Source: a virus. Taken from it: a DNA stretch of 55,771 nt. Location of the stretch: the IMG/VR virus record IMGVR_UViG_3300045971_000477, positions 1 to 55,771 of that record. One strand, 5' to 3'. Of the stretch, positions 17,099-53,808 are shown in pieces. The notes under the pieces were generated by a model that saw only the letters and a program-made list of their open reading frames with translations, was not told where the DNA came from and did no database searches. Position 1 is the stretch's first letter, and the number at the start of each line of letters is the position of its first letter. The position numbers and the translations under genes are program-made.

Positions 17099-17325
17099 GT
17101 GCCACCAACGAACCGATTGTCCGGCACTGGCCCGGAACCACCGTCAAATGGATGACCTATCAGGTTGGCCGGATGGTCAACCGCCAGGAGATTGTGCCGC
17201 AGTTTCTGGGGCGTGCAGTGGTGGGCACCAAGACCACCAGCAACTTCGTCACGGTCTTCAAGCTCATGGGTTGGGGAAAGACCGAAGAAGACGCTGTCAA
17301 GATGGCACACAAGAACGGGATTTAA
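17095..17325 (+). CDS. Small hypothetical protein, GTG start
   Basis: 76 residues. GTG 17095 overlaps the previous stop. It contains VPQFLGRAVVGTKTTSNFVT and ends with the helix TEEDAVKMAHKNGI, a layout common in small phage early proteins. Function unknown. It precedes the radical SAM gene by 8 bases. Confidence 0.6.
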   Translation: MSATNEPIVRHWPGTTVKWMTYQVGRMVNRQEIVPQFLGRAVVGTKTTSNFVTVFKLMGWGKTEEDAVKMAHKNGI

Positions 17326-17333
17326 CGCCGAAC

Positions 17334-18314
17334 ATGAAACGATCCTTCCAATTCTGCATATCAACCAGCAACATCTGCAATCTGAAGTGCCCCTCCTGCC
17401 CCATCGGGCGGAGGGAAGAACAGAAGGCAGTTGAATGGCTCACCCCACAAAAGCTCCAGGCCATTATGACCAAGGCATTGGGCGAGTGCAGGGTGCCCCG
17501 GGTGACCTTCGTGGGGTGGTGCGAACCCACCTTGAACCCCGACCTTCCGCTCATGGTCCGCATCGTGCGTGACCACAAGGTGGCATGCTGGGTGACAACG
17601 AACCTGACCGCGAAGTTCGACATGGATGCCCTGCTGGATGCGTCCCCGGAGATGATCATCGTGTCCACCAGCGGGGTGACTCAGCGCACCTTCGCCGTGG
17701 ACCACCCCGGGGGCGATGTTGCCGCCATGCTCGACAGGCTCTGGTATCTTGCTGCCCACAAGCGGAAAGGCACCAAGCTCATGGTCCTGTGGCACAGATA
17801 CAACTACAACGAGTCAGAGATGGCGCAGATGGAGGGCTTGTGCAAACGTGCAGGCATCCACTTCTGCCCAGTGTTCGGCAAGTTGCTGGGGATCGAAGCG
17901 ATGCAGGCAGCGTTCGGCGGTTCCCGTGACCATGACGCCGTGATCGGGCGGATGATCCACCACATAACGGACATCCGGGATGCGTGCTTCAAGCATCGGA
18001 AGGCACCCTGCCGCGAGATCCAACGGTCCATCACCATTGATGCCTGGGGTCGGGTGCGCGTGTGCGGTGTGGCCTATCACAATGGTTACATGGGCGACTA
18101 CCTCGCAACGCCCATCGCGGATCTGATTGTCTCGAAGGGGAACAATCCGTTCTGCCGCCGGTGCATGGCCATTGGAACCCAGAACTGGGCCAACGAAACC
18201 ATGACCTGGAAACGGCGCGTGATTGATCGCGTGATTGGGGTGGGCTTCGCCACCGCGGGCCGGTTGATGACGATCAAGCCCACCATGCACAAGGGTCTGA
18301 GCACGGATCTGTAA
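17334..18314 (+). CDS. Radical SAM enzyme
   Basis: 326 residues. The radical SAM Fe-S motif CNLKCPSC (CxxxCxxC) lies at residues 17-24, followed by VGWCEPTLNPDLP, which stands at the place of the GGE motif. A later Cys group (CGV near residue 242, CRRCM near 277) suggests an auxiliary cluster or SPASM-like binding. Such enzymes use S-adenosylmethionine radicals to modify peptides, RNA or nucleotides. The substrate here is unknown. It lies two genes before thymidylate synthase, so a nucleotide or DNA-modification role is possible but unproven. Confidence 0.85.
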   Translation: MKRSFQFCISTSNICNLKCPSCPIGRREEQKAVEWLTPQKLQAIMTKALGECRVPRVTFVGWCEPTLNPDLPLMVRIVRDHKVACWVTTNLTAKFDMDALLDASPEMIIVSTSGVTQRTFAVDHPGGDVAAMLDRLWYLAAHKRKGTKLMVLWHRYNYNESEMAQMEGLCKRAGIHFCPVFGKLLGIEAMQAAFGGSRDHDAVIGRMIHHITDIRDACFKHRKAPCREIQRSITIDAWGRVRVCGVAYHNGYMGDYLATPIADLIVSKGNNPFCRRCMAIGTQNWANETMTWKRRVIDRVIGVGFATAGRLMTIKPTMHKGLSTDL

Positions 18315-18657: not shown

Positions 18658-19473
18658 ATGCACACATACCTCGACCTTCTTACCACAATCATGCGGAACG
18701 GTGCCGTTAAAACTGACCGCACGGGAACGGGCACCCTGAGCGTGTTCGGTGCCCAGATGCGATTCGATCTGTCCAAGGGCTTCCCGCTCGTCACCACCCG
18801 GAAGATTGCGTGGAAACCCGTTGTGCATGAACTGTTGTGGTTCCTGTCCGGGTCAACCAACGTCAAGCCGTTGCAGGAGGCGGGGGTCCATATCTGGGAT
18901 CGGTGGGCAGATGAGAACGGGGATCTGGGGCCGATCTACGGGCAGCAATGGCGCAACTGGCGGGGCATGGATCAGATCTCGATGCTGATCTCCAATCTGA
19001 AGCGCAACCCCGATTCCCGCAGGCATGTGGTCAGCACTTGGAATGTGAACGATTTGCCCGACGAAGAGTTGTCCCCGCAGGCAAACGTCATGTGCGGTTC
19101 CATGGCCCTCGCCCCGTGCCATGCAATGTTCCAGTTCTACGTTTCCGACAACAGATTGTCATGCCAGCTTTACCAGCGGTCAGCCGATGTGCCCGTGGGC
19201 GTGCCCTACAACATCGCGGAATACGCGTTGCTAACGCACATGATTGCCCAGCAGGTTGGGCTTTCTGTGGGCGAACTGATCTGGACAGGAGGCGATTGCC
19301 ACATCTACTTGAATCAAATTGACGCCGTCCGGGAACAGTTGATACGAAGGCCACTGGGCCTCCCCCGGCTGCACTTGGCCTGGGCGGATAGCATATTTGC
19401 CTATCGCCCGGAGAACGTCGAGTTGATTGACTACCTGCCCCATCCGGCGATCAAGTATTTGGTGGCGGTATAG
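18658..19473 (+). CDS. thyA: Thymidylate synthase (ThyA type)
   Basis: 271 residues, close to the E. coli length of 264. It would convert dUMP to dTMP using methylene-tetrahydrofolate. Visible hallmarks are DRTGTGT near residue 20, [20 protein letters not shown] near 80-99, the catalytic Cys in [13 protein letters not shown] near 158, [17 protein letters not shown] with the Asn that selects dUMP, and the end PAIKYLVAV. Every landmark I checked is canonical, so a true synthase is the best call. dUMP hydroxymethyltransferases share the fold and cannot be fully excluded. Supplies thymidine for phage DNA synthesis. Confidence 0.95.
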
Positions 19474-23106: not shown

Positions 23107-24393
23107 ATGAACATTTATAACGACATAGACAAGAACGCTGCTGCGTGGACGCAACAGCTTATAACCAACAGACTGATCCCGGGTGGGGTCATGGTCTGCA
23201 AATCAATCACGGACATACAACCACATGAACTCGACGGATTTACACAAGCACATTTCTTTAACGGAATTTCCGGCTGGGCCAGGGCACTCGACCTCGCAGG
23301 GTGGCCAGCAACTCGACCTATTTGGTGCGCCAGTCTCCCCTGCCAACCTTTCTCCTGTGCAGGGAAAGGCGAGGGGGTCAACGACGAACGTCATCTCTGG
23401 CCAGTCTTTTTCCAACTTGTCAAAGCCTGCCGACCTGTCGTCATTGTTGGCGAGCAAGTTGAAGCTGCGATTGGGCACGGGTGGCTCGATGGAGTATTCG
23501 CAGACTTGGAAGGAGAAGGTTACACCTGCGGGGCGACGGTATTGGGGGCACATAGCGTCCAAGCACCGCATAGGCGGCAAAGGATCTACTGGGGGGCCTT
23601 CGCCAAAGAGATCAGACAACCAGACAGCATCTTGGGGCACCCCAACGACGCAGGATGCCAAACACACGGGAATGTCACCATCGGAGTTGAATCGCGATCC
23701 CAACAACCTACGTGTGCAGGCGCACCAGACGGGAGGGTGGCCCACACCACAATCGGCAGACACGGGCAAGAGCGAAACTGTTCGGCAGGGATCGGAGAAC
23801 CTATCCGTTGTGGCCAACAAGACAAGGACGGATGGGCTCGCGTCAGCTTTGCAGCCGACTGCCTTGGAGGAGACGAAACGGAGCTTGGAGATACATGCTC
23901 AATCTGCGGTCTTGACTACGGAAACGAGTGCCTTTGCCCTGGCCCAACACAAGACGGAATCGAATACAGAGAAATTGACGGAGTGCTCTATGGCGGGCTG
24001 GGCAACAGCCAGCAGCCGGGATTGGAAGGACACCCCTGGAATGGCAGAGACGGGAGTGAACCCGGACGGGTCAGTGCGTCATCGGCTGGATCAGTTGCCC
24101 AGACAGGCAACATTGGCAACTTCTGGGGCAACACATGGCACCACTGCCGCGACAACAAATGGAGGAGAATCCCAGCCACGGCTAATGCTCAACGTGTTTT
24201 TCTCGGCATGGTTGATGGGCTACAATCCACAGTGGACCCTATCGGCCTTGCAAGCCTTGGGTTCCCGCTCGCGAAAACGATCCCAAACCGCGTCGCCCTC
24301 CTCAAAGGCTACGGCAACGCAATAGTACCACAGGTAGCTGCGGAGTTCCTGAAAGCCGTGATGAACATACTAGATAACAAGTCGGCAACATAA
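23107..24393 (+). CDS. dcm: C5-cytosine DNA methyltransferase
   Basis: 428 residues. Motif I region is HFFNGISGWARALDLAGWP (49-67), catalytic motif IV PCQPFS (78-83, Cys 79), GEQVEAA (115-121) stands for the ENV motif, motif VIII HRRQRIYW (155-162), and the C-terminal GYGNAIVPQVAAEF (401-414) is motif X. It transfers methyl from S-adenosylmethionine to cytosine, probably protecting phage DNA from host restriction. Residues about 170-350, the target-recognition part, are rich in Gly, Gln, Asn and Thr and look disordered. This is where a second long frame runs inside the gene (23225-24325) and may constrain composition. Confidence 0.9.
   Translation: MNIYNDIDKNAAAWTQQLITNRLIPGGVMVCKSITDIQPHELDGFTQAHFFNGISGWARALDLAGWPATRPIWCASLPCQPFSCAGKGEGVNDERHLWPVFFQLVKACRPVVIVGEQVEAAIGHGWLDGVFADLEGEGYTCGATVLGAHSVQAPHRRQRIYWGAFAKEIRQPDSILGHPNDAGCQTHGNVTIGVESRSQQPTCAGAPDGRVAHTTIGRHGQERNCSAGIGEPIRCGQQDKDGWARVSFAADCLGGDETELGDTCSICGLDYGNECLCPGPTQDGIEYREIDGVLYGGLGNSQQPGLEGHPWNGRDGSEPGRVSASSAGSVAQTGNIGNFWGNTWHHCRDNKWRRIPATANAQRVFLGMVDGLQSTVDPIGLASLGFPLAKTIPNRVALLKGYGNAIVPQVAAEFLKAVMNILDNKSAT
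23225..24325 (+). CDS. Overprinted gene inside the cytosine methyltransferase
   Basis: A 366-residue frame in the +2 register relative to dcm, open without interruption for 1.1 kb. It starts at ATG 23225; GTG 23183 is an alternative. The product matches a phage family I recognise from proteins with DLFG near the N-terminus, a segment like SMEYSQTWKEKVTPAGRRYW (residues about 87-106), GWPTP and SRDWKDTPG repeats, and a C-terminal FSAWLMGYNPQWTL. All are present here. The family is of unknown function. It also carries QLDLF at residues 29-33, the consensus of beta-clamp-binding peptides. No clear Shine-Dalgarno, so expression must be tested. Family likeness makes a chance open frame unlikely. 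Confidence 0.65.
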   Translation: MNSTDLHKHISLTEFPAGPGHSTSQGGQQLDLFGAPVSPANLSPVQGKARGSTTNVISGQSFSNLSKPADLSSLLASKLKLRLGTGGSMEYSQTWKEKVTPAGRRYWGHIASKHRIGGKGSTGGPSPKRSDNQTASWGTPTTQDAKHTGMSPSELNRDPNNLRVQAHQTGGWPTPQSADTGKSETVRQGSENLSVVANKTRTDGLASALQPTALEETKRSLEIHAQSAVLTTETSAFALAQHKTESNTEKLTECSMAGWATASSRDWKDTPGMAETGVNPDGSVRHRLDQLPRQATLATSGATHGTTAATTNGGESQPRLMLNVFFSAWLMGYNPQWTLSALQALGSRSRKRSQTASPSSKATATQ

Positions 24394-24397
24394 TCAT

Positions 24398-24796
24398 ATG
24401 AGCGAGCAACACATGCGTCAGAGAGTCATTCACATGCTGCATCCACTGGATGCCATCAGTGTCGAGAACGCGGTCTATCCGGGCACCCCGGACATCAACT
24501 TTTGCGATGGCTGGATCGAACTCAAGCAGATCTCCAAGTGGCCTTTCAACCCCAACACCAATGTCCTACTGCGCCATTTCACACCGCAACAACGGGTTTG
24601 GCTCATGCGCCGCTGGCGTGCAGGGGGCAACGTCTGGATGCTGCTCCAGTGCAACCGCGAATGGCTTCTGCTATCCGGCGAAACCGCCGCCGATCTGGTG
24701 GGCAGGGCACCCCGCAACACCCTGATTCAGGCCGCCCACAAATACTGGGAGTATGGTGTCGAAGGCGAAGATCTCATCGCATATCTGAAAAGGTAA
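24398..24796 (+). CDS. VRR-NUC-like / PD-(D/E)xK nuclease
   Basis: 132 residues. The nuclease core is visible as SVENAVYPGTPDINF then GWIELKQI (residues about 20-45), that is E, PD and ExK spaced as in phage VRR-NUC domains. Later come QRVWLMRRWRAGGNVWMLLQ and a C-terminal helix. Such proteins act as Holliday-junction or branch nucleases in phage DNA processing. It sits between dcm and the primase-helicase gene in the replication module. Confidence 0.85.
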   Translation: MSEQHMRQRVIHMLHPLDAISVENAVYPGTPDINFCDGWIELKQISKWPFNPNTNVLLRHFTPQQRVWLMRRWRAGGNVWMLLQCNREWLLLSGETAADLVGRAPRNTLIQAAHKYWEYGVEGEDLIAYLKR

Positions 24797-51816: not shown

Positions 51817-53808
51817 TTACTTTCCAAAAAACGCCTCGCCACCCGTGCTGTCGCCAAACTCCGCGTCGGAATGCACGAATTCCGATTCCCCCTGCGGGAC
51901 AGCCACCGGCGGCATTTCCGCATGGACCTGCCCAAATGCCCCGGTTACCTCGCAGAGCTTGTTTAGGGCACCAGAGGCAGCGTCGCACTGATCTTTCAAC
52001 CGCCCCACCGGGAACACCTCGATCTCATCCAGAAACTCCTCGTTCCACCTGCCCTTGAGCAGTTTCACGTTGCCCACACTCGCCTGCGCCGCCATCGGCT
52101 CAGCCCGCACTTCCTTGGCTCCCGTCACACGCTCTATCCGGCAATCGAACCCAGCAAGGTTCCGCACCGTCGCCTCCGCCGATTCCTTGCCACCACTCCC
52201 CGGCTCCTGCTCAACATACGTGGTCACTCGCCCATCATACCTCTGCGCATCCACTATCGCCATCCGCTTGATCAATGCCTCCCGCTCCACCGCCCCCAAC
52301 CGCTCCTTCACCACGTCAAGGATAACGAACATGCCCTTCTCTGTCCTGCCCATCAGCACCCCAGCAGTCCTTGCGCCCTTGCCGCCAAGTGTGCCCGCTT
52401 TATCGAAGAATCGCACCAGCCGCACAAACTGCGGCTCATACCCCAACACATCAAACCATTCCCTCTTGAACATGCCGCCACCCCTGGGTGCAGGCCGTTG
52501 CTGCAATTGCCCCGCCACATGGTGAATGCCCATGGTCTTCTCCAGACGCGTCACCATCTCCTCCGTGAATAGGTCCGGCCACAACAACTCCCCATCCTTT
52601 CCCCGGGGATCTTGAAAGCCCAGGCTGGTGGTCTTCATCCGGTCCGCCTCATACCGCATGGGCAGACAAATATGGTCCCACGTCCCTTTGCCCATCAAAT
52701 GACCCGTCAAATCCATCGTGTGCAACCGCTGCTGCACCACGATCTGACTCACCCCGCGACTCACACCACGGGTGCTGATCGTTCCGTCCCACCAGTCTAT
52801 CACGTTCTGCCTGTCCGCCTCGCTCTCCGCCTCCTTGGCGTTGTTCGGGTCGTCCGCGCAGTTGTGGGTCAGGATCCCGTTGGCAAAATAGTTGTGGTTG
52901 CCATCCACATTCAGGTTGTAGACATGCTCCGGGGCAGGGATCCCCTCAATGGATTCAATCAGATCATAACCGTGGTCGCCCACCACACCCGCACTCTTGG
53001 TTATCAGCACCATGCCCACCACACAATCCACCGCCGGGATGTAGGTTCCCTTGTTCGGAGCAAGGCTGACATATATCGGATGCTCCTCCGTGCATTCCAG
53101 CTTACGCCCTCCCCGCGTGGTTATCCGCACGCAGGCCCGCCCCACATGCTTCTCGTAGGCAAGTATCTGCCTCCACTCAACGGTTCCCATGGCCTCGTTC
53201 CACGTCGCCACACGCTCAGGCAGCCGGTTCTCCACCAATGGCCCAATGGGGACGTTTCCCTTCTCTGTCAGGATCAGTGTGTCCTTATATACACACACTA
53301 CGTCCGGATGCAACCCTGTTCCCTTGCCACCCACGCTCGTTGATAACCGCCAGCCACCTTGCGAGTTTTCAAACAACCCTTTCGTGTTCTGGTCGTCCTT
53401 GAATTTGATCGGCCAGTTGCTCTGATACCAGTCGCTAGATAATATATTCCTACACCTTACACTGTCTCTCATGGTTAGCCCATCACTATACGAGGCAAAC
53501 AGAAATCGCTTCGCAGGACTCTTCGCCCATACCCACGCAGGCCAAAACACGCACACCAACAAACTCTTCATCGCCCCGGGGGGCACGTTGATCAACAATT
53601 GCTTGATCTTCCCATCGTTCACCGCACTCAAATGATCGCACAACGCCCCAATATGCCAGTTGTCCCGATACTCCACGTCCGGCTCCACTATAGCCCACGC
53701 CTGCCGCACAAACTCATGGAAACTGTCCTCCGCCAATGACTTGAGTAACGCCTTCCTCCTGGCAATCAATGACGCCTTGCTGATTTCAATGTCTTTGGGG
53801 GATGTCAT
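51817..53808 (-). CDS. terL: Terminase large subunit containing a mini-intein
   Basis: 663 residues in the precursor. P-loop VPPGAMKS at 75-82, then GKGTGLHPDVV just before the intein. The Walker B motif reads DVV-CADDP only after removal of residues 172-316. The C-terminal nuclease part is present (RFFDKAGTLGGKGARTAGVL, VEQEPGSGGKES). After splicing the enzyme would be about 518 residues, the usual TerL size. It packages DNA into the procapsid. Overlaps terS by 4 bases. Confidence 0.92.
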   Translation of the reverse strand: MTSPKDIEISKASLIARRKALLKSLAEDSFHEFVRQAWAIVEPDVEYRDNWHIGALCDHLSAVNDGKIKQLLINVPPGAMKSLLVCVFWPAWVWAKSPAKRFLFASYSDGLTMRDSVRCRNILSSDWYQSNWPIKFKDDQNTKGLFENSQGGWRLSTSVGGKGTGLHPDVVCVYKDTLILTEKGNVPIGPLVENRLPERVATWNEAMGTVEWRQILAYEKHVGRACVRITTRGGRKLECTEEHPIYVSLAPNKGTYIPAVDCVVGMVLITKSAGVVGDHGYDLIESIEGIPAPEHVYNLNVDGNHNYFANGILTHNCADDPNNAKEAESEADRQNVIDWWDGTISTRGVSRGVSQIVVQQRLHTMDLTGHLMGKGTWDHICLPMRYEADRMKTTSLGFQDPRGKDGELLWPDLFTEEMVTRLEKTMGIHHVAGQLQQRPAPRGGGMFKREWFDVLGYEPQFVRLVRFFDKAGTLGGKGARTAGVLMGRTEKGMFVILDVVKERLGAVEREALIKRMAIVDAQRYDGRVTTYVEQEPGSGGKESAEATVRNLAGFDCRIERVTGAKEVRAEPMAAQASVGNVKLLKGRWNEEFLDEIEVFPVGRLKDQCDAASGALNKLCEVTGAFGQVHAEMPPVAVPQGESEFVHSDAEFGDSTGGEAFFGK
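52861..53295 (-). other. Mini-intein in terminase large subunit
   Basis: 145 residues (C172-N316 of the precursor). Block A is CVYKDTLILTEKG with nucleophile Cys1, block B is GRKLECTEEHPI with the conserved TxxH, block F/G is NHNYFANGILTHN ending His-Asn, and the +1 residue is Cys317. All elements needed for splicing are seen. There is no LAGLIDADG or HNH endonuclease, so this is a mini-intein. The site is the Walker B motif, a highly conserved host position as inteins prefer. Confidence 0.92.

Follow-up and report, generated by a model that had tools for sequence, protein, structure and literature searches.

A +1 reading frame within a phage cytosine-C5 methyltransferase gene probably encodes the motif-IX subunit of a two-polypeptide enzyme

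Two open reading frames at one locus

The window analysed here is a 55,771-nucleotide stretch of phage DNA (IMG/VR record IMGVR_UViG_3300045971_000477). Positions 23107 to 24393 of its plus strand hold the gene for a cytosine-C5 methyltransferase (MTase), a large, alpha-like polypeptide of 428 amino acids that matches PF00145 (E 1.5e-16) and phrog_363 (E 4.5e-61). Its place in PF00145 agrees with the presence of the catalytic PCQ (aa 78-80) and of motifs I-VIII and X in this frame. Motifs I-VIII lie in aa 1-168 and motif X in aa 395-427, with GYGNAIVPQ at aa 401 (24307-24333, plus strand) and helices predicted by AF2 at 395-404 and 408-427. A low-complexity stretch, aa 173-336 (23623-24114, plus strand), is predicted to be disordered, its AF2 pLDDT being mostly <50.

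The +1 frame of the same strand contains a second ORF, a candidate beta-like, motif-IX-bearing polypeptide that matches phrog_1008 (E 3e-22). It measures 380 aa when read from a GTG (23183-24325) and 366 aa when read from an ATG (23225-24325); the latter corresponds to MTase codon 40, and an ATG occupies the same position in 45 family genes. The motifs quoted for this product in an earlier note on the sequence are all present, namely DLFG (23315), TWK (23504), GWPTP (23735), RDWKDTPG (24017) and WLMGYNPQW (24209), and the recognisable phage family of which it spoke exists as PHROG 1008. Three parts of the nested protein can be distinguished, all on the plus strand: a conserved N-terminal module, predicted as a helix and beta-hairpin (LASKLKLRL..MEYSQTWKEKVTPAGRRYWGHIA; 23429-23563), a region of WGTP/GWPTP/RDWKDTPG repeats (23633-24040), which corresponds in position to the variable (TRD) region that separates motif VIII from motif IX, and the motif-IX-like segment WLMGYNPQW (24209-24235). 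The nested ORF is kept across relatives family-wide. The overlap had been placed at the low-complexity recognition region of the MTase; it does include that region, but is not confined to it, covering ~89% of the MTase with the catalytic motifs included.

Openness of the second frame

The claim that two frames stay open over the same DNA was confirmed. In 5000 synonymous-codon shuffles of the window's MTase, the mean +1 open run was 139 codons and the maximum 364, compared with an observed run of 382 (p<0.0002); the +2 frame was ordinary under the same shuffling (74 versus 91). To lessen bias, we also fetched relatives (67 viral and 78 genome loci) through a search limited to the MTase catalytic domain; some bias is retained, since most of the loci in its seed alignment had been found with the nested protein. 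By the earlier note's criterion, an overprinted gene would be refuted by second-frame stops in relatives with an intact MTase, yet an open +1 frame spanned >50% of the MTase in 145/145 of these loci. Their mean was 296-300 open +1 codons versus 150-157 in shuffles, and +2 showed no excess. Members of PHROG 1008 occur in the +1 frame of nearly all loci fetched in this way, and the nested-family N-terminus in 157 of 160.

Canonical full-length C5-MTases from the same genomes served as a control. Their +1 frames showed no consistent excess opening, and a search of these frames for the nested motifs found none; three control loci that did carry the motifs are partial PF00145 matches of the phage type. 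Some of the canonical-control ORFs were mis-trimmed and were given no weight.

It could be argued that constraints of codon use and composition on the MTase keep the second frame open as a by-product that is never translated, as GC-rich, stop-poor frames are often long and the null runs already reach 140-160 codons. Shuffles that preserve the protein and its codon usage nevertheless fail to give the observed opening, canonical MTases lack it, and particular synonymous codons are fixed only at sites that specify conserved residues of the nested protein. On the combined strength of the shuffles, the codon tests and the canonical-MTase control, chance opening is ruled out, and we attach almost no probability to a by-product.

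Selection on the nested frame

Codon-level selection over homologs, which the earlier note had proposed as a check, bears out a nested gene that is itself constrained. In a column-by-column shuffle test, nested residues at TWK, WPTP and WLMG were far more conserved than synonymous shuffling permits; MTase codons 26-40 showed no such excess of nested-frame conservation. The W of TWK is under strong codon-level constraint, and since TWK overlaps the catalytic domain, an overlap limited to the low-complexity region is ruled out. Third positions were fixed at sites where the nested residue requires a given base (V118 is GTT in 94% versus 29% gene-wide, and G391 is GGG in 94% versus 21%), as was xTG at L134 (98%) and L388 (95%) versus 42% gene-wide. 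Among controls outside the overlap, L18 and G27 were near gene-wide codon use and L15 was raised to 67%, so that shared ancestry or codon bias must contribute to the codon pattern, though far less than the signal. The shuffles ignore phylogeny, for which these controls and thinning of the alignment are the guard; codon fixation was still significant after thinning to 48 genes (<67% identity).

An OLGenie-like count over 91 independent pairs gave a nested dN/dS of 0.95 before the overlap, 0.84, 0.66 and 0.64 inside it and 0.92 after it, where 0.64-0.66 refers to its conserved parts and the mid-region is uninformative because of poor alignment there.

A separate translation start

Many relatives carry an AGGAG over R32-S33 and an out-of-frame ATG 8 nt downstream, at MTase codon 36. 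The two features are tightly associated: the ATG is present in 57/58 genes with this Shine-Dalgarno (SD) sequence versus 45/150 without it (p 1e-21), and AGGAG in 57/102 relatives having the codon-36 ATG and 1/106 of those lacking it. After thinning at 75% identity the figures were 27/28 versus 26/106; at 70% the association also persists, and in the 48-gene set it is weak (p 0.025). In the window itself, the nested ORF starts elsewhere than at the codon-36 ATG, and no SD was visible at GTG 23183 or ATG 23225. Codon choice, dN/dS and the out-of-frame SD/ATG of relatives indicate that the nested product is under selection and is initiated separately.

Breadth of the family and its annotation

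Searching with the nested protein returned 33 phage records and 221 viral contigs. Nearly all of the 80 loci fetched from this search overlap an MTase. Among all loci collected, four (L054, L080, L383 and L387) lack a catalytic match, of which L054 matches the C-terminus of the query MTase. All of the aligned relatives (71/71) match the phrog_1008 profile. According to record titles, the hosts of the genome loci include Proteobacteria, Verrucomicrobiota, Planctomycetes, Acidobacteria, Nitrospirae, Leptospiraceae, Saprospiraceae and Bacillota such as Aneurinibacillus, to which annotated phages add Bacteroides, Lactobacillus, Paenibacillus and actinobacterial hosts. The nested arrangement is present in phages and prophages of many bacterial phyla and is mostly unannotated. 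A few phages do have the nested family (PHROG 1008) annotated in the same place, among them Escherichia phage K1G with its 'Mte8-like' ORF and Paenibacillus phage Leyra with gp62; the names given are only 'DNA methyltransferase' or 'Mte8-like'. In the E. coli prophage copies examined, the nested ORF is missing from the RefSeq annotation. These copies sit among phage genes, and a restriction-modification neighbourhood was ruled out for them. In one E. coli prophage (ECCTRSRTH03; L420:3989-5158) RefSeq treats the MTase as a two-piece pseudogene, and the +1 nested frame keeps a long open segment with TWK, WPTP and WLMG.

Motif IX and predicted structures

An LMGF-like motif IX was found in the +1 frame of 187 of the 202 family genes, in frame 0 of one and in both frames of none. 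Frame 0 gave no detectable motif IX in 201/202, the window's MTase included, and this MTase therefore falls outside the canonical single-polypeptide class, in which motif IX lies in the same polypeptide. In five canonical full-length C5-MTases, a frame-0 RLMGF or RLQGF..GNS was detected. In the window, the WLMG segment has the variant form GYNPQW. When the profile of the nested C-terminus is aligned directly with Dcm, only LMGF is picked out, and with the actinophage profile it is motif X of Dcm that aligns; the identity of motif IX thus rests on position, spacing and the actinophage proteins described below. By reading, MMGW and GN are 20 residues apart in a fused actinophage protein, compared with 21 between LMGF and GN in Dcm.

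The AF2 model of the MTase frame comprises a catalytic core and motif X with a disordered stretch between them, and a folded recognition domain is absent. The core (aa 1-170) is mostly at pLDDT >90, and its top Foldseek matches are M.HhaI/M.HaeIII. The nested protein was modelled mostly with low confidence (pLDDT 59), its N-terminal module being predicted as a helix (69-86) and two strands (91-99 and 105-113) in a block with pLDDT of about 71-91. A fold match for the nested protein was sought in the PDB, as was a PDB profile match for the nested family and for the second actinophage gene; none was found.

Actinophage fusions and split pairs

In actinophages, a module of the nested type is either fused in-frame to the catalytic domain or found in a neighbouring 'DNA methylase' gene. 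The phrog_1008 profile, which matches the nested ORF, also matches single-frame actinophage MTases in their C-terminal half (E 1e-57), and hhalign relates the nested family to the second gene of split actinophage MTases (prob 97.5, E 8.7e-12). The split pairs are Cintron 79/78, Bora 6/5, Vash 32/33, RedFox 42/43 and Float294 62/61. Pairs and fusions (for example Cintron 79/78 and IrishSherpFalk 71) hold the same catalytic and LPTP/WMMG modules as the window. Their modules are, however, adjacent or fused with motif X in the second one, whereas in the window they are nested and motif X stays in the MTase frame. The first gene of split pairs stops after motif VIII, which leaves only the second gene to hold the recognition region there, and it is mainly for this reason that we suspect a recognition role for the nested region. 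For Mycobacterium phage Cintron gp78 (L255:1504), the annotated TTG start is probably too late, as its +1 frame runs on upstream through TFPTSGMTRSGRLLPLEPSEPHT within gp79.

Both the single-frame fusions and the annotated pairs, which overlap by about 26 nt in +1, would be in keeping with programmed frameshifting that joins motifs I-VIII from frame 0 to WPTP and motif IX from +1 and then returns to motif X. We regard this as highly improbable: genes of the window type would require two opposite shifts, the conserved SD and ATG of many relatives provide for separate initiation, and conservation of the nested protein extends to its N-terminal module, which precedes every plausible site for a shift.

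A two-polypeptide methyltransferase

The absence of motif IX from frame 0 and its presence in +1, the link through actinophages and the layout of M.EcoHK31I lead us to the view that the nested gene is probably the motif-IX subunit of a two-polypeptide C5-MTase, namely the one that it overlaps. Reportedly (Lee et al., 1995), the small polypeptide of M.EcoHK31I is encoded within the large gene in another frame. M.EcoHK31I is a two-polypeptide C5-MTase whose large polypeptide has motifs I-VIII and X and whose small one has motif IX only; in M.AquI, the catalytic polypeptide has motifs I-VIII and the second comprises the distal variable region and motif IX (PMC3404938). Compared by described layout, the window's MTase resembles the large polypeptide of M.EcoHK31I (YGGCCR) in having motifs I-VIII and X and lacking IX, and the motif IX of the second polypeptide has a candidate counterpart in the LMGF-like +1 segment (WLMGYNPQW in the window). 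The window differs in that its small ORF is long, contains WPTP repeats and is phage-borne, and in that a recognition domain is predicted in the large subunit of M.EcoHK31I, which leaves a TRD role for the WPTP region uncertain. M.AquI (CYCGRG) is closest to the actinophage split pairs; its small subunit also carries motif X, an arrangement (IX and X in the second polypeptide) seen only in those pairs.

Under the proposed mechanism, the MTase frame would give a catalytic polypeptide that holds motifs I-VIII and X and is disordered at the place expected for the recognition domain and motif IX. From its own internal start, the +1 frame would give a smaller protein as the source of motif IX (WLMGxPxxW) and probably also of part of the recognition-side surface, through the TWK hairpin and WPTP repeats. 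We infer assembly of the two products, a need for both of them and recognition of DNA by the WPTP region; the assembled enzyme would be active and sequence-specific and would mark phage DNA.

Alternatively, the nested ORF could be translated into a genuine protein that takes no part in catalysis, such as an MTase regulator or inhibitor, or one with an unrelated phage function, and have no more than the DNA in common with the MTase. The most confidently predicted part, the helix and TWK hairpin, is not a recognised MTase element. In addition, a TWP-type N-terminus is kept in the +1 frame of 31/35 fused actinophage MTases that have motifs IX and X in frame 0, and motif IX can therefore not be the whole job of the nested product. 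We consider a wholly separate job unlikely, given that homology ties the C-terminal half of the nested product to that of MTases, with in-frame fusion in some phages, that the MTase frame lacks motif IX at the very place where the nested ORF carries it, and that no stand-alone copy away from an MTase was found among the loci examined.

A literature search for the overlap or for a nested function in PHROG 1008/K1G/Leyra-type genes found no description among the papers searched. The earlier note knew of no described function for the overprinted product, but M.EcoHK31I offers a precedent from which a function can be proposed (PMC3404938). New here are the breadth of the arrangement, its connection with 'DNA methylase' pairs of phages and the evidence for selection. 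If the subunit reading is right, many of the 'DNA methyltransferases' of phages and prophages, a large class, would as annotated be half enzymes with the second subunit in the other frame; such enzymes are predicted to show no apparent activity if one recoded gene is cloned by itself, and would form a large multi-phylum natural set for the co-evolution of two overlapping proteins. More tentatively, there may be an old, cross-phylum superfamily of phage cytosine MTases that keep the recognition side and motif IX in the +1 frame of the catalytic gene, with interconversion of nested, adjacent and fused forms. In such a superfamily, catalysis and specificity would evolve in the same nucleotides.

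Neighbouring genes

Immediately 3' of the MTase, a small ORF (24398-24796, plus strand) matches phrog_2165. The related MTase of several E. coli prophages has a gene for a VRR-NUC/PDDEXK nuclease beside it. Elsewhere in the window, genes for a thymidylate synthase (18658-19470, plus strand; PF00303 E 1e-110) and a radical SAM protein (17148-18311, plus strand) lie upstream of the replication genes, and the large terminase gene (51817-53808, minus strand) contains an intein splicing domain (PF14890 E 3e-10) between its two terminase halves.
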